A DNA stretch of 24,447 nucleotides from a virus. Below the pieces are notes generated by a model that did not search any database, was not told the origin of the DNA, and saw only the letters and a list, made by a program, of their open reading frames with translations. The DNA lies in the IMG/VR virus record IMGVR_UViG_3300035158_000251, positions 1-24,447 of that record; one strand, written 5' to 3'. Numbering within the stretch: position 1 is the first letter of the stretch; each line of letters opens with the position of its first letter. Both the position numbers and the translations under genes were made by a program. Positions 3,581 through 16,627 of the stretch are shown here, piece by piece.

Positions 3581-3847
3581 ATGGCATTCGCATTCACACG
3601 AGATGGAAAGTCCGTAATGGGCAACAAGCGCGTAGCTTGGGGAACATTCACTAATGCTTCAGGCGATACAGGCGGCAACATCGACACTGGACTTGTTCTA
3701 GTCGAGTCGATGTATTTTGCTGGCTCTGGCGCAGGTGCTCTCACAGCTCTCCCATCCGTGAACGAAACCCTACCTGCTAGCGGCGGGGCAATCACAATTG
3801 TCTGTGCCGATGGTGAAGACGGCTACTGGTTTGCAATCGGAAGGTAA
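3581..3847 (+). CDS. Putative head decoration/stabilisation protein
   Basis: An 88-residue, beta-rich, Gly/Ala/Thr-rich protein just downstream of the major capsid gene. It begins MAFAFTRDGKSVMGNKRVAW and resembles small proteins of tailed phages that commonly sit beside the capsid gene and are thought to be capsid-associated. There is no membrane segment. A textbook ribosome site, AGGTGATT, lies about nine bases before the ATG and suggests high expression, as expected for a protein needed in hundreds of copies. It is the last gene before a strong hairpin terminator. The family resemblance comes from memory and the role from position. Confidence 0.65.
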   Translation: MAFAFTRDGKSVMGNKRVAWGTFTNASGDTGGNIDTGLVLVESMYFAGSGAGALTALPSVNETLPASGGAITIVCADGEDGYWFAIGR

Positions 3848-3858
3848 CTTAGGATTCC

Positions 3859-3893
3859 AAGTAGGAAGTCTGCTTCCTACTTTCAGCCTTTTT
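3859..3893 (+). terminator. Strong hairpin terminator after the capsid operon
   Basis: A perfect 10-bp stem (3859-3868 with 3873-3882) with loop TCTG is followed six bases later by TTTTT (3889-3893). This has the form of a bacterial intrinsic terminator. It may stop, or limit, transcription from the highly expressed capsid genes into the next module. Confidence 0.75.
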
Positions 3894-3968
3894 GCCAAAA
3901 CACTATTATCCAGTTGAGACCATGTTCTGTCATGGGATGCACAGGCCGCACGAGTCGGAGAGATTTCC

Positions 3969-4388
3969 ATGGACATCGAAGAAGTTCCTGAAGAACATCG
4001 TAAACACCTTCTGAAGAAGGACAACCCAACCAGAGTGCCCAATGCATCAATCTTTTCCTTATTGTCAGAGATGGAGACCAAGGTCTCTAAGTTCATCTCG
4101 AAGATGCCTGAACGCATGGCAGTGGTTGAGATCAAGCAAGACCAGACCTATCAGTCTCTTTGTGAGCTTGATGAGAAGGTTGACAGGAAGCTTACGGAAC
4201 AAGACGAGAAAATCACAGCAACCAGAGACGACTTCCAAGAGTGCCAGCTCAAAGGGATAGGTCTCAGGTCGGAGAGAGAGACGGAGAACAAGTGGATTAT
4301 GCGAGCAATGGGTCTCGTCATATCACTCTCACTCGTCACCCTCTATCTCTTGTTCGTGCATCTTGGAGTCGAGATTCCAGTTCCATGA
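3969..4388 (+). CDS. Coiled-coil protein with a C-terminal membrane anchor
   Basis: A 139-residue protein: a charged N-terminus, a helical heptad-like region (about residues 30-105, rich in Glu/Lys with regularly spaced Leu/Val), then one hydrophobic helix at about 109-131 (IMRAMGLVISLSLVTLYLLF) and a short tail. The layout resembles XhlA-type or other holin-associated proteins and tail-anchored virus proteins, but I see no diagnostic sequence. GGAGAGAT lies directly before the ATG. It stands alone between the capsid terminator and the next small gene and could be a membrane-associated lysis, egress or virion protein. Function not established. Confidence 0.7.
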   Translation: MDIEEVPEEHRKHLLKKDNPTRVPNASIFSLLSEMETKVSKFISKMPERMAVVEIKQDQTYQSLCELDEKVDRKLTEQDEKITATRDDFQECQLKGIGLRSERETENKWIMRAMGLVISLSLVTLYLLFVHLGVEIPVP

Positions 4389-4399
4389 GACCGTAGTTC

Positions 4400-4406
4400 T
4401 TATATT
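4400..4406 (+). promoter_or_regulatory. TATA box before the small gene at 4440
   Basis: TTATATT lies 40 bases before the ATG at 4440. The predicted start of transcription is about 4425-4430, so the transcript would be nearly leaderless. It may drive the whole 4440-7760 gene run. Confidence 0.5.
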
Positions 4407-4439
4407 GGTGGGTCTCTTAAACAGAGTCAGTGAACTATC

Positions 4440-4601
4440 ATGGCATACGTAGTGAAGACAGATACGGCTCACGACCAAGCAGACATCAAGACAAAGCTCG
4501 AAGCTCTCATTACAGGTTCAACAATCACAACCTATCATGAGTCGGGCGTCATCAAAGATGGGTCTCAGTATCTTGTCTATCTCGTTTATGAAGGCACATG
4601 A
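4440..4601 (+). CDS. Hypothetical small protein (53 aa)
   Basis: A 53-residue acidic protein beginning MAYVVKTDTAHDQADIKTKL and ending in a beta-like QYLVYLVYEGT. No Cys, no membrane segment and no motif I recognise. It follows a TATA-like sequence at the short distance typical of this genome and precedes the large structural gene at 4620 by 18 bases. The pattern (one helix, then two strands) suggests a compact alpha/beta fold. Support comes from codon use, the promoter and the clean gap on both sides. Confidence 0.6.
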   Translation: MAYVVKTDTAHDQADIKTKLEALITGSTITTYHESGVIKDGSQYLVYLVYEGT

Positions 4602-4619
4602 TTTCATGAGGTCTGAATC

Positions 4620-5342
4620 ATGGGAACAATCGACCAGGACTTTACAGTTGATTTGAACGGGGACATCAGGTCAAGCGGACCTGACTATTTCAGAGTCATA
4701 GAACTCCACAGGTTCTTGCAAGACCTAGCTGATGACCAGCAGATGTCTGGCAATGACCTGATTGACATTACTTCTCAGAACCCGAGCACTCGGTCAACGG
4801 ACAACATCATCACCCTCAATGGGAACTACAACATCGATGATGCAACGGCCAAGTGGCTCTATGATGGTTCAGTCACCCAGGATGGTGGAGACACTGTCTA
4901 TGCAGGTCTCGAAGTAGTGGGCAATGTTCCAGGAACGACAGAGCTCCAAATCTTCCAGGATGACTCAGAGATTCCTGAATGGTGGGGAACTGGAATCAAC
5001 ACTGGCGGCGGAGCATTCATCATGAGAACCATGATTAAGATTCGTGGTGGTCTCCATGATGGCACAGAACAGATTGGTGCTCTCATCGATGGTGGAAGGA
5101 TTCGAGTCCAAGCGAGAGAGTTCAATGACACCTATGCAGAGTTCGAGGTCACACTAGGTCTCGGGAACTCCACAGCAGCTATCTTCACTGGAGACGACAT
5201 CTTCAACAACACAGCTCAGGCGACTGTGGCGGCTTGGGATTGCTCCAACACTGAAGGCTACCAGACCATCGACCTTCAGAATGGAAACGGAGCTCAGGAA
5301 CAACCATCGTCAATGAAGTGGGTCTCTCAATCACACAGATAA
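4620..5342 (+). CDS. Tailed-virus structural protein, apparently shortened
   Basis: A 240-residue protein beginning MGTIDQDFTVDLNGDIR and containing RFLQDLADD, a NIITLNGNYNIDD-like segment, GGALIDG-type and RVQAREFNDTYAEFEVTLGL segments. I recall the same order in much longer tailed-phage structural proteins, in which a further large domain follows. Here the frame ends abruptly with KWVSQSHR, while the -1 frame stays open from 5255 and encodes ITQINYFMSMLGKNT, which looks like the expected continuation. The gene may therefore be expressed through a -1 shift or as two pieces, or be frameshifted. It probably belongs to the virion, but the location is unknown. Confidence 0.7.
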   Translation: MGTIDQDFTVDLNGDIRSSGPDYFRVIELHRFLQDLADDQQMSGNDLIDITSQNPSTRSTDNIITLNGNYNIDDATAKWLYDGSVTQDGGDTVYAGLEVVGNVPGTTELQIFQDDSEIPEWWGTGINTGGGAFIMRTMIKIRGGLHDGTEQIGALIDGGRIRVQAREFNDTYAEFEVTLGLGNSTAAIFTGDDIFNNTAQATVAAWDCSNTEGYQTIDLQNGNGAQEQPSSMKWVSQSHR

Positions 5343-5548
5343 ACTACTTCATGTCGATGCTTGGGAAGAACACAGTGGTCGAGTACGACTACGATGCAAA
5401 CAACGACAACACTGGAGCGACCTTCTATCTCTACGAGACTGAAGCAGATGCAACACTCCATGACAAAGCAACAGGTCTCATCGACACGCTCACGATGACA
5501 GCCACTTATCAGGATGGCAGACCTCAAGTGATGAAGGTGGTCGAATGA
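5318..5548 (+). CDS. Downstream piece of the structural protein (overlapping frame)
   Basis: A 76-residue frame in the -1 phase relative to the preceding gene, overlapping it by 25 bases. The first possible start is GTG at 5318, with no well-placed ribosome site. The sequence EYDYDANNDNTGATFYLYET and a following TMTATYQDGRP look like a beta domain seen at the ends of long phage structural proteins. It overlaps the next gene by ATGA, as real genes here do, so it is probably translated by coupling, by frameshifting from the upstream frame, or by GTG initiation. Confidence 0.6.
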   Translation: MGLSITQINYFMSMLGKNTVVEYDYDANNDNTGATFYLYETEADATLHDKATGLIDTLTMTATYQDGRPQVMKVVE

Positions 5549-5724: not shown

Positions 5725-5890
5725 CACAATCATCGAACAGGTGTCCATCACGTTCTCCGTTGTGGAGCAGGTCTCTATCAGCGAGACCATCATCGAGCAA
5801 ATACTTATCTCTGACAGTGAGATCGAGCAAATACTTATCTCTGACAGTGAGATAAACCAAGTGAACATCACCCAGGAGGTTCTGGTCTAA
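5705..5890 (+). CDS. Tandem-repeat small protein (61 aa)
   Basis: Almost the whole 61-residue protein consists of 10- to 12-residue units of the type [TS]-x-I-I-E-Q-[VI]-x-I-[ST]. There are about five, with EQ (once NQ) and alternating hydrophobics in register. Such regular short beta repeats suggest a small beta-solenoid or a fibrous trimer. The last units are an exact 30-bp DNA duplication. It overlaps the preceding small gene by 20 bases and is joined to the next by TAATG. A start at ATG 5705 is the only good choice. Function unknown; possibly a spike or spacer on the capsid or neck. Confidence 0.6.
   Translation: MAVAISDTIIEQVSITFSVVEQVSISETIIEQILISDSEIEQILISDSEINQVNITQEVLV
5792..5851 (+). 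repeat. Two exact 30-bp tandem repeats within a coding region
   Basis: The 30 bases at 5792-5821 are repeated exactly at 5822-5851 and code for ten residues ending in the EQ-repeat phase. A third, degenerate unit follows. Exact identity implies recent duplication, so copy number may vary between relatives. Confidence 0.9.
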
Positions 5891-6183
5891 TGTCAACACG
5901 AAGAGCTTACTATCCTGAACAGACGGTCTCCAGAAGGTTCAACTTCGAGGATGTCAGTGGAACTCTCACTGACCCAGACTCAAGCACATGTGAAGTCTAT
6001 GACCCGACTCACACTTCTCAAGCAACTCCAACACTGACCAAGATTAATGATGGAGTCTTTGAGATGAACTACACTCTTCCAAACAATCCTCAGAAGGGTG
6101 ACTGGATGATAGTGGTCACAGGAACGATAGGCTCTTACAAGGGCATTCAGAAATTCTATTTCGAGGTGGAGTTGTTACCATGA
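5890..6183 (+). CDS. Ig-like beta-sandwich structural protein (97 aa)
   Basis: A 97-residue protein with the strand pattern of a single immunoglobulin-like domain: RRFNFEDVSGTLTDP, then TCEVYDPTHTS, DGVFEMNYTLP, GDWMIVVTGT and KFYFEVELLP. I recall similar single-domain proteins in tailed phages, where a 'DxxGxLxDP' turn and a 'G-x-Y/F-x-Y-x-x-P' strand are typical. It is coupled to its neighbours by TAATG and ATGA. The position just before the connector gene suggests a capsid- or neck-associated role. No signal peptide. Confidence 0.6.
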   Translation: MSTRRAYYPEQTVSRRFNFEDVSGTLTDPDSSTCEVYDPTHTSQATPTLTKINDGVFEMNYTLPNNPQKGDWMIVVTGTIGSYKGIQKFYFEVELLP

Positions 6184-9880: not shown

Positions 9881-10253
9881 GAACATGTTCAAGGTCGAGG
9901 CAGTTGGACTCCAATTTCTTGAGCAAGCATTTGACACTCTCTCTGAATCCATGCAGAAGAAGTCAAAACAAGAGATAGGTGATTCAGCAACTGAAGCTGC
10001 TCGCATTGCGAAAATCCTGGTGAGGGTTGATACTGGTTTCCTTCAGTCACAGATTTTTGTCAGAGAGCTTCTAGGATTCAACAAGTTTGAACTGGTCGCC
10101 GCAACTCCATATGCCGAATACGTTGAATATGGCACAAGTCGAATGCCAGCATTCCCATATATTCGACCTGCGATTGAACAAGTTGGAAGGGAACTTCCTC
10201 GCAAGATTCTCAAAGAAGTCATGTCTGATGTCAGGAGAGTTCTACCCAAATGA
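9870..10253 (+). CDS. HK97 gp10-like tail completion protein
   Basis: A 127-residue protein with the hallmark of the HK97 gp10 family: VRVDTGFLQSQI in the first half, then YAEYVEYGTSRMPAFPYIRP and a helical end. The family joins tail and head or acts at the neck of long-tailed phages. Start choice: TTG at 9870 has AGGTGA nine bases before it, and the in-frame ATG at 9885 has no better site, so I keep the TTG. It is joined to the tape measure gene by ATGA. The gene's place after the chaperones rather than before the tube is slightly unusual. Confidence 0.82.
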   Translation: MVAKNMFKVEAVGLQFLEQAFDTLSESMQKKSKQEIGDSATEAARIAKILVRVDTGFLQSQIFVRELLGFNKFELVAATPYAEYVEYGTSRMPAFPYIRPAIEQVGRELPRKILKEVMSDVRRVLPK

Positions 10254-12520
10254 GCGAGAATGCCACAGGAAATGTCAGAGTAGTCCTTCAAGCTGTGGAC
10301 AATGCATCATCCACAATGCAGAAGGTAAAGGTCGGAATGACTCAGCTCTCAGGAGCATTATCTCAACTTGGTGGCGGCTTCGCATCTGTCAACAACATCA
10401 TGCAGGGATTCGCGGCTGGTGGACCGTGGGGAGCTGCCGCAGCTGCTATCGGTGAAATAATCGGGCAGGCTGAGAAGGCAGTCAGAGTTTTCGCTCAGTT
10501 CGAGACCGCAATGGTGGATGTTGCAGCTGCATCAGGAGCATCGGGTGAGGAACTCATCCAGCTCAGGAAAGACCTCCAGGAAGCTGCTATGGCCGCAGGA
10601 GTCGAGTTCGGAGTGGGTGCAACTGAAGCCATGAAAGCAATGGAGTCTCTGGTGAAGGCAGGTCTCGAAGGAGAGGAAGCCATCACAGCACTCAGCGCAG
10701 CTCTCACGATGGCACAGGTAGAGGGAATGGCAACTGCTGAAGCGGCTGACCTCATGGTTGGAATCATGGGAATGTTCCAGATGTCAGCTGAAGAAGCCGC
10801 ACATGCAGTCGATGTGATGGTCAATGCATCAATCGCTGGAATCGCAACATCCAATGAGTTCGCAACTGCCCTGTCATATGTTGGTGGTCGCGCCAACCAG
10901 CTTGGATTCAGTCTGGAAGAGACCACAGCTGCACTTGTCGCCATGAACAACCAAGGTATAGCGGCAACCACAGCAGGTCAGTCATTGAACATGATGATGA
11001 CCCAGATGATTCAGAAGTCTGACACACTTGGGTTCTCACTCTATGATTCACAGGGGAACATGCTGTCCCTCGCAGAGATTTCTGGAAATCTGGTGGACAA
11101 GCTCAACTCATTCTCAACAGAGGCTGAACGAAATGCCTACCTCACTTCAGTATTCGGAGCTCGTGCAGGTCGAGCCGCAGCTGCACTCGCAGGTTTCGGA
11201 GACACAGGAGCAGAAGTGCAAGCCGCATTGGAAGCACTCACTGAGGAGATGGAGGAAGGAGGAACTTCAGCTGACATCCTGGAGCAGAAGCAAGACACAC
11301 TCGCAGCTACAGGAGACCGTCTCGCGGCCATGTTCGAGAATCTCTACATCATGATTGGTGAGATTCTTGCTCCAGTCTTGGAGTGGTTCGCCAACTTCAT
11401 CGAGCAATACATCATTCCGTTCATTGAGGACATCATTCCTCCAATCGCGGCAGTGGTCAATGCCTTCCTGACATTCATCGACACCATCTGGAAGCTTGGA
11501 CAAATCATTGCTCACTACCTCAAGCCAATCATCGATGGAATCATGGCATTCCTCGGACCACTCATCGAAGCCATCAAAGCTGTTGTCGAGGCAGTCATGT
11601 TCCTCTTCGGAATCCTGGTGGAAGCTGTGAACACAGCCTATGATGAGATTACTCAGACCAATGATGCCATTGTCGATGACATGGAAGACACAGCTGACGA
11701 AATCAATGAGATTTCTGAGGAGGAGCAAGCTGAATATGACCGACTCGCGGCAATGTATCAGGAATATGCTGACTCACGCATGGGTGTGAATGACCAGATT
11801 GTCGAAGACACTGAGGAGACCGTGGATGCTGTCACTGATGCATTCAACAACATGGACCAGACAGTCGTTGGTTCCATGGAGCAGATGGCGGCAAATGCCA
11901 CAGCGGCAATCCAGCAGGGTCTCGTTGGAGACGCTCAGGATGCAATCCATGACTTTGTTGAGTGTTCGACCACCAAGCAACAAGAGATGGTGGAGGACAT
12001 CGATGGCTACTTGGAAGACATGCGAGAGCAATATCGTGAGAACATGATTGAGATTCGCAGACTCCAAGATGCAGGAATGCACCGAGAAGCAGAGCTCCTC
12101 ATGAAGCACAACAACGAGCTCACTCGTAAGATGGACCAGCTTCTCATCTGGCGAGACATGATTCTTCAACAGCAATGGGACTCGACAACTGATGCAGTCA
12201 GGCAGGCACTCATGGACCAATATGGTCTCTATGAGCAATACTACTCAGACCTGACTGGATTGGATGAAGAGTTCTTCCCAGACCCTGTTGAGCCTATCAT
12301 CGACCCAATCAGAGAACTTCCATTCGATGAGATTGACCCGATTAGATTCCCACAGCCAGACCCAATCACCATTGCTCCAACAGTCGGGAATGTTCAGCTA
12401 GACTTCCATGAGCCAGTGGACATGATTGATGCTCGAAGGATTGCTGAGGATGTCTATTCGGAGCTTCAGAAGATTCAGGAAGAACAACAGAGACAGAGAG
12501 GTTATCAGAGAAATGTCTAA
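10250..12520 (+). CDS. Tape measure protein (TP901-type)
   Basis: A 756-residue protein. The N-terminal ~330 residues match the TP901/PhageMin_Tail core: AQFETAMVDVAAASGASGEE, an Ala-rich helical stretch, GGRANQLGFSLEETTAAL, AAGQSLN, and an ERNAYLTSVFGARAGRAAAAL end. This is followed by a long hydrophobic region (about 350-470) with several possible membrane helices, then a charged helical tail to residue 690 and a Pro/Asp-rich end. Such proteins set tail length and may help the DNA cross the membrane; the hydrophobic centre fits. The stop overlaps the hub gene by eight bases. Confidence 0.92.
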   Translation: MSENATGNVRVVLQAVDNASSTMQKVKVGMTQLSGALSQLGGGFASVNNIMQGFAAGGPWGAAAAAIGEIIGQAEKAVRVFAQFETAMVDVAAASGASGEELIQLRKDLQEAAMAAGVEFGVGATEAMKAMESLVKAGLEGEEAITALSAALTMAQVEGMATAEAADLMVGIMGMFQMSAEEAAHAVDVMVNASIAGIATSNEFATALSYVGGRANQLGFSLEETTAALVAMNNQGIAATTAGQSLNMMMTQMIQKSDTLGFSLYDSQGNMLSLAEISGNLVDKLNSFSTEAERNAYLTSVFGARAGRAAAALAGFGDTGAEVQAALEALTEEMEEGGTSADILEQKQDTLAATGDRLAAMFENLYIMIGEILAPVLEWFANFIEQYIIPFIEDIIPPIAAVVNAFLTFIDTIWKLGQIIAHYLKPIIDGIMAFLGPLIEAIKAVVEAVMFLFGILVEAVNTAYDEITQTNDAIVDDMEDTADEINEISEEEQAEYDRLAAMYQEYADSRMGVNDQIVEDTEETVDAVTDAFNNMDQTVVGSMEQMAANATAAIQQGLVGDAQDAIHDFVECSTTKQQEMVEDIDGYLEDMREQYRENMIEIRRLQDAGMHREAELLMKHNNELTRKMDQLLIWRDMILQQQWDSTTDAVRQALMDQYGLYEQYYSDLTGLDEEFFPDPVEPIIDPIRELPFDEIDPIRFPQPDPITIAPTVGNVQLDFHEPVDMIDARRIAEDVYSELQKIQEEQQRQRGYQRNV

Positions 12521-14294
12521 GTATCGAGTGACGATTGATGGAGTCGATGTGTCCCAGAAACTGGTGGATGAAGGATTCACTCTCTCTTGGGGGGACATGG
12601 CTTCCAAGCGAGCATCAGTGAAGCTCTATGAACAGCTCTACAATCTGAACGATGAGCTGATTGTCTACTTCGATGACACAGTTATCTTCCAGGGTGACAT
12701 CGACAAGGAGTTCGTGAGACCTGGAGAGTTCATCTGCTATGCATCTGACCAGATGATTACTCTCGCTGATGTGATTGCCAGAAATGTAGACCATCGTGAG
12801 TATTCACTCCGGCGAAACGAGGATGTTGGAACTGGTGACAACATTGATACCACATGGGAACTCGACTATCCAGCTCTTGACAGATCATTGGCAATCACCG
12901 ATGATGAGAACGACATCGAGGTCTTTCTTGATGGAGTATATGTTGACCCTGCCGATTACACCCTCGATGGTGATGGTGGAACTGGTGGAGTCGGACTCAT
13001 CACCTTCGACACAGCTCCTGGAAGCTCAGTCGAAATCACATGCAACTACAACGCGAAGGAACCCGTTCAATATGAGGTCATCTTCAAAGACCTCCTGTCC
13101 TACTACTACCCTGGAGTCTTCGATGTCAGCAATGTGGATGACACGAACAAGACCTGCTTCTATGTTGACCTGACTGACAAGTCCATCTGGGAATGTCTCA
13201 AGGTTCTCTCACAGAGAGCAAACATGGCAATGTGGCTTGAACCTCCAAACAAACTGTATTGGAAGACTCGCGACTCAGTGTCATCAGACTTCTCAGCAAT
13301 CTATGGTCAGAACATCAAAGACCTGTCAATCACTCGTGACAACTTTGTGAAGACCAGAGTAATCGTTCTCATCACGCTTCCAGGAGGAAGGACTGGCGAG
13401 GTGATTGTGGGAACAGGGTCTCGGACTGCCATTGTCAATGATGACACCATCAACAACGAGACCGATGCAACCGCGAGAGGTCAGGCTGTTCTCGATGAGC
13501 TCCAGGACATTCAGATTCGAGGAGAGATTGAACTCACTGAGTCTCGGCATGACCTGATTCCTGGAACTACCTGTGTCTTGAATGCTCCTCAGTTCGGATT
13601 CGAGAACGAGACCCTTAGAATCAAACATGTCAATGTGACTCCGAAGGGAACCAAGCTCTCACTTGGTCTCATGACTGCAATGGTGGAAGACCAGATTGTT
13701 GACTTCGAGGAGAGAATCAGGCGGCTTGAGAATCGAGGCATGACTTGGAGAGTCGCATGTGACACTTCCCAACAGACCATGGCTGGATGTGTTGTGGTCT
13801 GCGAGGCCGAATGTCAGATAGCATGTGAGACCGTTGCAGGATGTGTGACTGCATGTCAAGAGGGTCTCTGTCAGACTGATTGCCAGACCTCTCTTCAAAT
13901 CACCTGTGTCACTGGTGAACAGATTTGTGGAGATGAGGGAACATGTCAGATTGCCTGCCAGACGGGACATCGATGTGAGACCACCTGCCAGAGCCAATGC
14001 CAAACAGAGTGCCAGACCGAGTGCCAATCTGAATGTCAACAGTCATGTCAAGGAGGTTGCGAGACCTCATGTCAAGCAACATGTGAAACTGCCTGTCAGA
14101 CTGGTTGTGAGATAGTGTGCAACACTGGTTGTGAGACCTCATGTCAGACCACTTGTCAACAGAGCTGTCAATCCGTCTGTGAGACTCAGTGTCAGACTGC
14201 ATGTGAAGTGAGCTGTGATGGCTCATGTCAGGTCGCATGTAAGATTGGATGTCAGGAAGAGAGTCTCTGTTGTGGAACTATCGGACCAGACTAA
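12513..14294 (+). CDS. Tail hub/baseplate protein with a long cysteine-repeat C-terminus
   Basis: A 593-residue protein starting at ATG 12513; the longer upstream frame lies inside the tape measure gene, and GAGGT sits about nine bases before 12513. Residues 1-410 look like a tail hub of the gp27/gpD type, starting YRVTIDGVDVSQKLVDEGF, with an inserted Ig-like domain at about 103-183 that matches the insert in tube paralogue B. From about residue 410 it changes to a 184-residue tail with 39 Cys. The last long run has 24 Cys spaced exactly four residues apart, each followed mostly by Gln or Glu (CETSCQTTCQQSC style). No known virus structural domain that I recall has this. The next gene encodes a radical SAM/SPASM enzyme fused to a glycosyltransferase, so the tail is probably a modified substrate. 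A metal- or disulfide-rich fibre is the alternative. Confidence 0.82.
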   Translation: MSKYRVTIDGVDVSQKLVDEGFTLSWGDMASKRASVKLYEQLYNLNDELIVYFDDTVIFQGDIDKEFVRPGEFICYASDQMITLADVIARNVDHREYSLRRNEDVGTGDNIDTTWELDYPALDRSLAITDDENDIEVFLDGVYVDPADYTLDGDGGTGGVGLITFDTAPGSSVEITCNYNAKEPVQYEVIFKDLLSYYYPGVFDVSNVDDTNKTCFYVDLTDKSIWECLKVLSQRANMAMWLEPPNKLYWKTRDSVSSDFSAIYGQNIKDLSITRDNFVKTRVIVLITLPGGRTGEVIVGTGSRTAIVNDDTINNETDATARGQAVLDELQDIQIRGEIELTESRHDLIPGTTCVLNAPQFGFENETLRIKHVNVTPKGTKLSLGLMTAMVEDQIVDFEERIRRLENRGMTWRVACDTSQQTMAGCVVVCEAECQIACETVAGCVTACQEGLCQTDCQTSLQITCVTGEQICGDEGTCQIACQTGHRCETTCQSQCQTECQTECQSECQQSCQGGCETSCQATCETACQTGCEIVCNTGCETSCQTTCQQSCQSVCETQCQTACEVSCDGSCQVACKIGCQEESLCCGTIGPD

Positions 14295-14310: not shown

Positions 14311-16182
14311 ATGGTAATTGCAGAAGAAATTAAGGATGGAGAGTCTCTCTTAGCGAGAGCAGATGTGAAGAAGAAAGAAAAGGAAGAGTGCAGTCCACGG
14401 AAGAAACATCTCGTGGGTCTCTGGCTCACTGATGCCTGCAACCTGAGATGTGACTATTGCTTCCAGGACAAAGACCACATTCCCAAGAACATGAATCAAG
14501 AGACCCTGGATGCGACAATCAAGTTCGTCAATGAGATTGAACCAATGGGCGTTGCATTCTTTGGTGGAGAACCACTCATTGCAAAGAGACAGTTCAAACA
14601 GGCTCTCGCAGAGATGAAGGTTCCCAAGTTCTATCTCACCACGAATGGAACATTGCTCGATGATGACATCCTCGATTGGATGGAGATATTCAAAGTACAT
14701 CTCAATCTGAGCCTGGATGGAATGAAGGACACACAAGACAGATGGCGAGACGGTTCTTACGATGCAATCATAAGGAACCTTCCTCGAATCCTCAGACATA
14801 TGGACATCGTTGGTGGAGAGGTCTTGATGACCATGGTGATGGAGTCTCAGCTCTATCGGAACGTGAAGCATGTGAAGGAGCTTGGCTTCCCCTCAGTCTA
14901 TATCAACCTGCTCGACCCATATGGAACTCAAGTGAGGAACGAGCCTGAGAAGGTTGACATCTTCAAGGAGCAATATCGCAAAGTCATCACAGAGCTTCGA
15001 GAGAAGAAGTTCAGGATTGATGACTATGACCGATGGGTGAAGCTCTTGAAGAACCCAAACTGGAAGGGCGGCGAATGTGGCTTCCACAACAGTGGACTTG
15101 GCATCTCACCAGATGGTCTTCTCTATCCCTGTCATCGTGGACCTGAACTCGGACCTGAGTATTCATTCGGAAGTGTCTTCGAGGGGATTGATGAGAAGAG
15201 GATGCAGGAAGTGAGGTCTCTTGGTTGGCATCCAGACGATTGCAGGTCTTGTGACCTCGCGTTCAATCAGTGTCCCGTTTCATGCTATGGTGAACATGGC
15301 GAGTTTGGAAAAACAGTCCATCCAGTCCACTGTCTCTATGAGAAGGCAAAGGCTGAGGTCGTTGCAGAGGTGGCAGGAATCTCTATCACTCCAGAGGCCA
15401 AGGCTGACTTCAATGTCATGGAGGATACGCGACTGATTGTTGGAACTCTGGTCGCTCCGCACAAATACTACATCCTTCCTCAGTTCCTCAAGAATCTCGA
15501 CAAGATGCAGTTCCCCGAGGTCACTGACTACTACTTCATTCTCGACTATGGAGACAATCGGACTTATCGACTCATCGACCTCTGGCTCAAGAACAAGATT
15601 CCATTCGCGCCATATGAGAGGAAGATTGTCAGGAGATTCAAGACAATCAGAATCCCGACCCAATCTGATGACATCGTGATGGACAGGATAACCAGAGCTC
15701 GGAACCTCCTGCTCAATCAGGCATTGCAGGGAACCTACACTCATCTGATGTGGTTGGACTCAGACATCATTGCTCCTCATGACACTGTGCCAAAGCTCCT
15801 CGCTGTGAATGATGCAATCGCAGGAGCTCTCGTGGAGACCCGTCAAGAGTTCGAGCGAGAGACCTGGTTCAACACCTACATGGATGCAGGCAATGGTTCA
15901 TGGCCTTCCAAGACAGACTTCATCAAGGGTGACATCATCACTGTCGATGCAACTGGCTGTGATGCTGTGATTATCAGAAGAGACGTTCTGGAAGATGTTG
16001 GTGTCTACGATTACAGGAGATATGACCATCCAGATGGACCAGCTGGGGAAGACATGCTGTTCTGTCTGAGAGCAAAGGCACTTGGTCACAAGACTCGCAT
16101 CCACACTGGAGTTCATCCAAGACATCTTGGGATTGCAGATGTGGAGCTCACGAGTTCGGTCATCTATGAACGACTTGCTTAA
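14311..16182 (+). CDS. Radical SAM/SPASM enzyme fused to a GT-A glycosyltransferase
   Basis: A 623-residue two-domain protein. Residues about 32-250 form the radical SAM domain with CX3CX2C (C43, C47, C50 in DACNLRCDYC) and GGEP (85-88). A SPASM region follows (C256, C274, C311, C314, C321, C325, C341), as in peptide-modifying enzymes that use auxiliary iron-sulfur clusters. From about 360 on there is a GT-A-type domain: VGTLVAPHKYYILPQFLKNL, the DxD motif DSD (483-485 in WLDSDI), a TGCDAVIIRRDVLEDVG loop, ED (580-581 in GEDMLFC) and a late HTGVHPRHLG. Start: ATG 14311 with GGAGA before it; the longer frame overlaps the hub gene. It follows the Cys-repeat hub gene by 16 bases, which points to post-translational modification of that tail. 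Confidence 0.87.
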   Translation: MVIAEEIKDGESLLARADVKKKEKEECSPRKKHLVGLWLTDACNLRCDYCFQDKDHIPKNMNQETLDATIKFVNEIEPMGVAFFGGEPLIAKRQFKQALAEMKVPKFYLTTNGTLLDDDILDWMEIFKVHLNLSLDGMKDTQDRWRDGSYDAIIRNLPRILRHMDIVGGEVLMTMVMESQLYRNVKHVKELGFPSVYINLLDPYGTQVRNEPEKVDIFKEQYRKVITELREKKFRIDDYDRWVKLLKNPNWKGGECGFHNSGLGISPDGLLYPCHRGPELGPEYSFGSVFEGIDEKRMQEVRSLGWHPDDCRSCDLAFNQCPVSCYGEHGEFGKTVHPVHCLYEKAKAEVVAEVAGISITPEAKADFNVMEDTRLIVGTLVAPHKYYILPQFLKNLDKMQFPEVTDYYFILDYGDNRTYRLIDLWLKNKIPFAPYERKIVRRFKTIRIPTQSDDIVMDRITRARNLLLNQALQGTYTHLMWLDSDIIAPHDTVPKLLAVNDAIAGALVETRQEFERETWFNTYMDAGNGSWPSKTDFIKGDIITVDATGCDAVIIRRDVLEDVGVYDYRRYDHPDGPAGEDMLFCLRAKALGHKTRIHTGVHPRHLGIADVELTSSVIYERLA

Positions 16183-16230
16183 TGCAACACCTATTGTCAA
16201 CAGAACTGTCAGGTTCATGGGCAGTTCTAG
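16183..16230 (+). repeat. Relic of the cysteine-repeat sequence after the radical SAM gene
   Basis: Directly after the TAA of the fusion gene and in its frame, 15 codons read CNTYCQQNCQVHGQF before the next stop. The Cys register is four, with N or Q following each Cys, as in the hub tail. A 17-base stretch (TGTCAACAGAaCTGTCA) differs by one base from the hub repeat at 14154-14170. It is a leftover or duplicated piece of the repeat, or a stop-readthrough extension. Confidence 0.7.
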
Positions 16231-16277
16231 TGGCAGTTAATCAGGGTTAACCGCAATCCGCGCCTGAAATTCACATA

Positions 16278-16304
16278 TTTAAATATTTCTGTACATTTTG
16301 TACA
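16278..16304 (+). promoter_or_regulatory. TATA box with an overlapping TGTACA operator pair
   Basis: TTTAAATA (16278-16285) is followed by TGTACA-TTT-TGTACA (16290-16304), two palindromic half-sites between TATA and the expected transcription start near 16303-16308. A protein bound there would block initiation. It drives the gene at 16331. Confidence 0.7.
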
Positions 16305-16330: not shown

Positions 16331-16627
16331 ATGATGCGTAGTTACCTACGAAGTAAAATGAACGCTTTCAGTAATGTCATGAGCATGGGCATCAAACGCG
16401 GCTCAGCCGCTGGCACTGCCTACGAAGTAACACTGACCCTCACCAAAGTCACCTATGGTGACAGACCCTTCGAGGTTGTCAAGACAGCCTGGAGTCAGGG
16501 CGGCTTAATCTTGAGCGAGAGAGGTCGGAGACTATTCAAGCACCAGGACAAGGCCGAAGCCTACTTCAGAAGACTGATGCAGGAAGAGGACTTTGTTCCC
16601 ATTGATGTTGATGAGTGGTTGAAGTAG
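16331..16627 (+). CDS. Hypothetical accessory protein (98 aa)
   Basis: A 98-residue basic protein with a beta-rich start (TAYEVTLTLTKVTYGDRPFE) and a helical, charged end (RRLFKHQDKAEAYFRRLMQE). Three ATGs are possible: 16331, 16334 and 16358. The last begins ATGAACG like the other accessory genes, giving 89 residues, and is preceded by a GTAG-ttac-CTAC element at 16338-16349, so the shorter form may be the true product. The gene stands alone between an operator-bearing promoter and a T-rich end. No recognised family; a DNA- or RNA-binding role is possible from its charge. Confidence 0.68.
   Translation: MMRSYLRSKMNAFSNVMSMGIKRGSAAGTAYEVTLTLTKVTYGDRPFEVVKTAWSQGGLILSERGRRLFKHQDKAEAYFRRLMQEEDFVPIDVDEWLK
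16338..16349 (+). promoter_or_regulatory. GTAG-N4-CTAC operator-like element inside the 5' end of a gene
   Basis: GTAG-ttac-CTAC is the same element found six bases before the TATA boxes at 337 and 16673, but here it lies downstream of the TATA box at 16278. It could serve as a roadblock or a leader-RNA site. Confidence 0.5.

Follow-up and report, generated by a model that had tools for sequence, protein, structure and literature searches.

A Cys-array-like fragment in a predicted stem-loop directly behind the stop codon of a viral radical SAM-glycosyltransferase gene: a possible remnant of a C-terminal array tail

The window analysed here, a linear virus record of 24,447 nt, carries head and tail genes, including those for a head maturation protease, a major head protein, tail tube proteins and a tape measure (10250-12520). 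The tape measure is followed by a tail protein with a cysteine array and by an enzyme gene, and the fragment under study begins directly after the stop codon of the enzyme. The features of this region are as follows.

12513..14294, + strand: tail protein (the hub) after the tape measure; its C-terminal ~160 residues are a Cys-x3 array, and it ends in LCCGTIGPD
13770..14255, + strand: Cys array of 29 Cys-x3-Cys units
14311..16182, + strand: enzyme gene with a radical SAM domain, a SPASM-like region and a C-terminal glycosyltransferase-like domain
16183..16218, + strand: three Cys-array units, CNTY CQQN CQVH, in the enzyme frame
16219..16230, + strand: GQF followed by TAG; this may be where an array tail naturally ended, or a fourth unit in decay, or a hairpin arm
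16231..16242, + strand: TGGCAGTTAATC, a possible decayed fifth unit that a hairpin arm explains equally well
16182..16250, + strand: alternative ORF of 22 codons, MQHLLSTELSGSWAVLVAVNQG, whose ATG overlaps the enzyme TAA (TAATG)
16193..16237, + strand: stem-loop of 7 bp, a 2x2 internal loop and 9 bp with a 9-nt loop, -18.3 kcal/mol
16278..16285, + strand: TATA-box-like TTTAAATA ahead of the next gene (16331-16627)

The name hub rests on gene position only, because the protein has no Pfam match. Its array is of the Cys-x3-Cys type with Gln or Glu mostly at Cys+1, and a structure model of part of the protein was poor (pLDDT 41). A gap of 148 nt separates the enzyme end from the next gene at 16331; the TATA-like box at 16278 precedes that gene, which puts the fragment where the tail gene set closes. 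Elsewhere in the window, a promoter-like block, CTACA..(A/G)CATTTAAATA, is common to positions 337, 16673 and 24152, and CTTGAGCAA and ATGAACG are found about 25 nt past it (archaeal-type TATA boxes, common start context). The TATA-like boxes suggest an archaeal host. A 30-nt unit also occurs twice without mismatch at 5792-5853, where a long intergenic stretch separates gene 4620-5342 from gene 5890-6183.

The enzyme matches the radical SAM superfamily (PF04055) with 59.4 bits against a cut-off of 29.5 and possesses the CxxxCxxC triad; C43, C47 and C50 are invariant in alignment A1. Residues 256-315 score 16.0 bits with SPASM (PF13186, cut-off 21.5). Among NCBIfam families the best match is PapB (NF047865; 142.9 bits, 145 in a second run, curated cut-off 340), and the SCIFF maturase (TIGR03974) and CXXX-repeat rSAM maturase (TIGR04115) models score 94.5 bits against 425 and 66.4 bits against 350; the curated cut-off was reached for none of the 25 NCBIfam families listed. 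The closest solved structure by sequence is PDB 5wgg (E 5.7e-20), which we take to be the SCIFF maturase CteB. A structure model of the enzyme was good only in the radical SAM half. Searches of phages with the glycosyltransferase part alone, and DNA-level searches of phages and plasmids, gave no match. The enzyme TAA is found close to where a stand-alone glycosyltransferase homologue also ends, and the rest of the gene appears intact.

The closest known systems include the following. PapB-type ranthipeptide maturases share with the enzyme the radical SAM triad and a substrate with four-residue-spaced repeats, but the enzyme has a fused glycosyltransferase-like domain and scores under the PapB cut-off. 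The PapB motif consists of Cys-x3-Asp/Glu thioethers in peptides, according to the available part of the source (PMC9413430), whereas the target in the window would be Cys-x3-Cys inside a large tail protein. For SCIFF (TIGR03973/TIGR03974) the likeness lies in the 5wgg structure and in the SCIFF core CQTSCQSACKTSC (locus L211), which resembles the array units; however, SCIFF is a peptide of 46 aa, the tail protein carries ~30 Cys, and the SCIFF peptide profile did not match the hub array. The CXXX-repeat target and its enzyme (TIGR04117, TIGR04115) are alike in concept, with Cys-x3 repeats as the target of a radical SAM enzyme, but here viruses and tail proteins are involved, and the hub of the closest relative reaches 10.1 bits against 50 for TIGR04117. 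By analogy with PapB and SCIFF, the hub's Cys array is probably the substrate that the enzyme modifies.

Scans of IMG/VR and one genome scan turned up just one close relative, the contig IMGVR_UViG_3300029813_000020 (a single contig fetched as L002, L123, L203, L204, L208, L237 and L244). The genome scan matches, Mucilaginibacter and a Tenericutes MAG, are both distant (28-31% identity). The L002 hub is 54% identical to that of the window, the two arrays align unit for unit apart from two insertions of one residue each, and the L002 hub ends in LCCGTIGPI ahead of the enzyme gene. The L002 contig stops inside this gene and does not contain the orthologous 3' end.

IMG/VR was searched with the enzyme aligned to three relatives, and the best 80 of 281 confirmed loci were kept. 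By a script rule, 18 of these best 80 contain a Cys-x3 array, a count that includes at least three near-duplicate pairs (L125/L127, L160/L161, L194/L195) and the known relative (L123). The array gene is found upstream of the enzyme in L123, L139, L156, L157, L170, L180, L183 and L194/L195, downstream in L134, L141, L150 and L160/L161, between enzyme genes in L125/L127 and L159, and on the other strand in L201. Three more of the 80 loci (L136, L144, L146) have short, interrupted or TAG-containing arrays outside the script rule. In L170, L180, L183, L139, L194, L201 and others, viral proteins next to radical SAM genes carry Cys-x3 arrays of great length, the largest with about 125 Cys. Short C-terminal arrays (L144, L125, L159) have, like the fragment, 3-5 Cys in register and are found beside radical SAM genes, but they are translated within another protein, whereas the fragment lies behind the enzyme stop. 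In L144 the protein beside the radical SAM gene ends in CQRSCQINCQTSVQKS and a stop; by analogy, the former state of the fragment is best modelled on this short terminal array. A Cys tail right after the stop was found in 0/109 and 0/114 distinct radical SAM genes of the fetched loci, and CxxxCxxxC within the last 120 residues of the enzyme in only 1 of 109 (L159).

Several loci are of interest in their own right. In the radical SAM and Cys-array region of L136 (7290-7410) Cys-Gln is written TGT-TAG, and TAG is apparently read as Gln. This locus was considered as a second array with an in-frame stop and set aside: TAG breaks its frames throughout, as in a recoded phage, and it is not a parallel. 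L211 (1020-1157) holds a true SCIFF ranthipeptide (TIGR03973, 88.5 bits) with a radical SAM gene, and L212 and L214 look alike by eye; these human-faeces 'phage' scaffolds are probably clostridial DNA or cargo. On the minus strand of L115 (5455-8505) a baseplate-like protein appears by eye to contain an intein with a homing-endonuclease-like insert, and the neighbouring protein (3854-5437) bears Cys arrays. Phage records searched at the protein level with the arrays gave no match, an uninformative result because the low-complexity filter hides such repeats. In the open-licence PMC literature no papers were found on Cys-x3 arrays in viral tail proteins together with radical SAM enzymes. Campylobacter phages CP220 and CPt10 encode 11-12 radical SAM proteins; the available text of that paper (PMC2853527) names no peptide substrate, and the word 'cysteine' is absent from it.

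Behind the enzyme TAA (16180-16182) the frame continues as CNTYCQQNCQVHGQF and is closed by a TAG after 15 codons (TGC AAC ACC TAT TGT CAA CAG AAC TGT CAG GTT CAT GGG CAG TTC TAG). Three Cys stand at exact four-residue spacing, followed by N, Q and Q, which confirms the in-frame Cys repeat that the first-pass annotation had reported after the stop. The 17-base stretch it had described is also exactly as stated: TGTCAACAGAACTGTCA (16195-16211) has one mismatch to the hub at 14154-14170 (and three to 14034-14050). An apparent 12-nt register extends to 16242 (GGG CAG TTC TAG / TGG CAG TTA ATC). The units CNTY CQQN CQVH have no internal start codon and would therefore be translated by readthrough only, and there is no evidence that the 22-codon ORF at 16182..16250 is a gene.

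The likeness to the array was scored with a 12-nt profile built from the 29 hub units. The 36 nt at 16183-16218 score 14.66 bits, and the 16183 region is the top + strand place outside the array for three, four and five units. The chance of such a score is 3.7e-6 per position, and a 14.66-bit stretch occurs somewhere in 18 of 122 random windows (~15%) of the same size with both strands' worth of positions. Among the 25 listed gene ends of the window the runner-up to the enzyme end reaches only 2.5 bits. In the fetched loci, where distinct ORFs of at least 150 aa were counted stop to stop, 0 of 2475 ORF ends had a score of at least 14.7 within ten codons after the stop (this cut-off sits 0.04 bit over the observed 14.66; the test on 122 windows used the exact value). 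An in-frame CxxxCxxxC within 15 codons after the stop was found at one of 2477 ORF ends, a simple CQQF repeat behind a gene other than radical SAM (L049). A first control set including L003-L122 gave 55 positions at or above the three-unit cut-off and 175 at or above the five-unit cut-off among 3,428,435, and is biased because L003-L122 were chosen by their Cys-Gln pattern. The 79 enzyme-chosen loci alone contain 29 places for three units and 26 for five in 1,523,864 positions; inspection by eye showed almost all of these places to be real in-frame Cys arrays. The Cys-array likeness at the post-stop site thus exceeds chance, although across the whole window it is not overwhelming. The fragment is notable for its position, directly after the stop of an enzyme that adjoins the array.

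The fragment is identical to the hub in 24 of 30 nt (14141-14170) and, over the longer stretch, in 23 of 36 nt; the 30-nt identity was reached by 0/1000 shuffles and 0/394 60-mers from the window. When unit-phased windows of the hub (24 for each length) are compared with all its other parts, 19-24 of 30 and 21-26 of 36 nt are identical. The match to the fragment is no higher than matches within the hub, and the fragment is therefore array-type coding sequence and not a recent copy of 14154: as a piece of Cys repeat the earlier description holds, but descent from 14154 was rejected. The idea that the enzyme gene had been inserted into the array was also rejected, because the conserved hub end is intact before the enzyme: LCCGTIGP, one residue and a stop precede the enzyme in both the window and L002, the order of hub and enzyme is the same, and the arrays align without unit loss. 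Three further candidates were dropped. An assembly join through repeats is judged unlikely, as the longest exact tract shared by fragment and hub is 11 nt (TTGTCAACAGA), and this is shorter than the usual assembler words. A diversity-generating retroelement TR/VR pair does not fit, the mismatches not being adenine-specific (three of the six in 30 nt fall on a fragment A and one on a hub A). A recoded stop at the enzyme end is contradicted by the 12 of 25 listed window genes that end in TAA, the commonest stop.

The predicted stem-loop at 16193-16237 begins 10 nt past the TAA and has 16 bp in all; the fragment supplies most of its 5' arm. The 55 nt around it fold with -18.8 kcal/mol, a stability matched by 3 of 2000 shuffles, and both its energy and its z (-2.8) are the lowest among the 25 gene ends. 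On the + strand as a whole the place ranks 12th in 46-nt windows, with 11 others folding better. Of 150 random 60-mers from the window about 9% have z below -2 and 2% below -3, and the 151-nt region around the stem-loop is without unusual structure as a whole (z -1.2). These statistics are moderate evidence. Because the CAG triplets of 'units 4-5' can be put down to the 3' arm, they were not counted as array. No T-run (U-tract) follows and the terminator scan lists nothing there; the structure therefore fails as a standard intrinsic terminator. The region has no Rfam match. A perfect 10-bp hairpin elsewhere in the window (3859-3882) follows gene 3581-3847 and has T-rich sequence close by.

The reading preferred here, with about even chances of being right, is that a short C-terminal Cys-array left this fragment behind as an untranslated remnant, which is now part of a 3' stem-loop. 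The enzyme would end at its TAA, at about the natural end of the glycosyltransferase-like domain, and the next 36-48 nt would have once encoded a short array tail of the kind carried by other viral tail proteins. Such a tail may have been fused to the enzyme or have landed directly behind its frame, and would now be cut off by the TAA. The remnant would sit in the untranslated sequence that closes the tail gene set on its 3' side, inside the stem-loop of 16 bp, whose probable role is to protect or end the transcript. The radical SAM enzyme would cross-link the Cys array of the tail protein, and its glycosyltransferase part would perhaps glycosylate the array. Directly seen are the in-frame array-like units, the predicted fold, the unbroken hub end and a TAA close to the end of the glycosyltransferase domain; the remnant status, the untranslated state, the role of the stem-loop and the modification of the array are inferred. 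The profile score of the site, far above that of the other 24 gene ends, and the use of the commonest stop codon near the glycosyltransferase end speak for this reading. The array-like units begin at the first codon after the TAA and in frame, and since they start with zero spacing a former fusion is favoured over a random landing. Three Cys in register, six residues and a stop have a shape like terminal arrays of the L144 type, and the stem-loop, the most stable of 25 gene ends, lies in 148 nt before the next gene. Against a remnant, no orthologue with or without the tail is among the loci found, L002 stopping within the enzyme; a fused ancestor is without clear precedent here because of the counts of 0/109 and 0/114 for post-stop tails and 1/109 for a terminal CxxxCxxxC; an equal three-unit stretch is held by 18 of the 122 random windows; and the stem-loop could explain part of the sequence.

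This last point leads to the strongest rival, in which the tail gene set closes with an RNA stem-loop whose 5' arm resembles Cys codons by coincidence. It is unlikely. The 9+7 bp stem, matched by few shuffles and the best of the 25 gene ends, is in its favour, as are the perfect 10-bp hairpin at another gene end (after 3847) and the CAG triplets of 'units 4-5', for which the 3' arm accounts. However, coincidence would have to produce an array score of about 4e-6 per position at the exact in-frame site, and the greater part of unit one (TGCAACACCTAT) is array-like although it falls outside the stem. The missing U-tract, the 11 better-folding 46-nt places on the + strand and the lack of an Rfam match also weaken it.

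It is improbable that the fragment is a recombination scar or seed, copied from the hub array and enabling exchange of the enzyme gene or the hub end. The single mismatch of the 17-mer to 14154 and the differing order of array and enzyme among distant viruses would be expected from it, but the identities to the hub (24/30, 23/36) lie within the hub-internal range, the longest exact tract is 11 nt, and array length and hub end are conserved between the window and L002. The proposal of a seed that varies the hub end consequently finds no footing. That of a mobile gene-plus-repeat unit is borne out only as far as the variable order goes, and nothing links the fragment to that variation.

Slightly less probable still is that an error, from sequencing or in the population, put the TAA there and the enzyme truly carries the tail. 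The window is a single record from a metagenome contig and the tail is otherwise well formed, but the TAA falls near the natural end of the glycosyltransferase domain and the rest of the gene is unbroken in appearance.

Least probable of all, and very unlikely, is that a minor fraction of ribosomes continues past the TAA with help from the stem-loop, giving the maturase CNTYCQQNCQVHGQF as a substrate-like tail: the frame is unchanged and without a gap up to the TAG, the tail resembles true C-terminal array tails, and the strong stem-loop close after the stop is the sole hint toward readthrough, but TAA is the ordinary stop of this virus, the 109 and 114 radical SAM genes of the fetched loci offer no precedent, and for Archaea, which the promoter type makes the probable host domain, the available part of the source (PMC8037382) gives Sec and Pyl as the only unequivocally established cases of stop readthrough. 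The suggestion of a self-substrate enzyme thus fares poorly. In this very unlikely case low-level readthrough driven by the stem-loop would give a minority of the enzyme its own three-Cys tail, and these molecules would be cross-linked, tethered to the tail tip or self-limited; a virus-encoded protein-modifying enzyme would then be tagged by its own mark.

For the preferred reading, an untranslated remnant, the fragment after the enzyme stop hints that array pieces can be gained and lost as C-terminal tags. The interest of the locus lies mainly in the system of enzyme and Cys-array tail and not in the leftover fragment. That system is real: tailed viruses carry long Cys-x3 arrays on tail proteins and encode PapB/SCIFF-like radical SAM enzymes alongside. 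If the arrays are thioether-cross-linked, viral tail tips would be giant ranthipeptide-like proteins, and RiPP chemistry would be used for parts of the virion.
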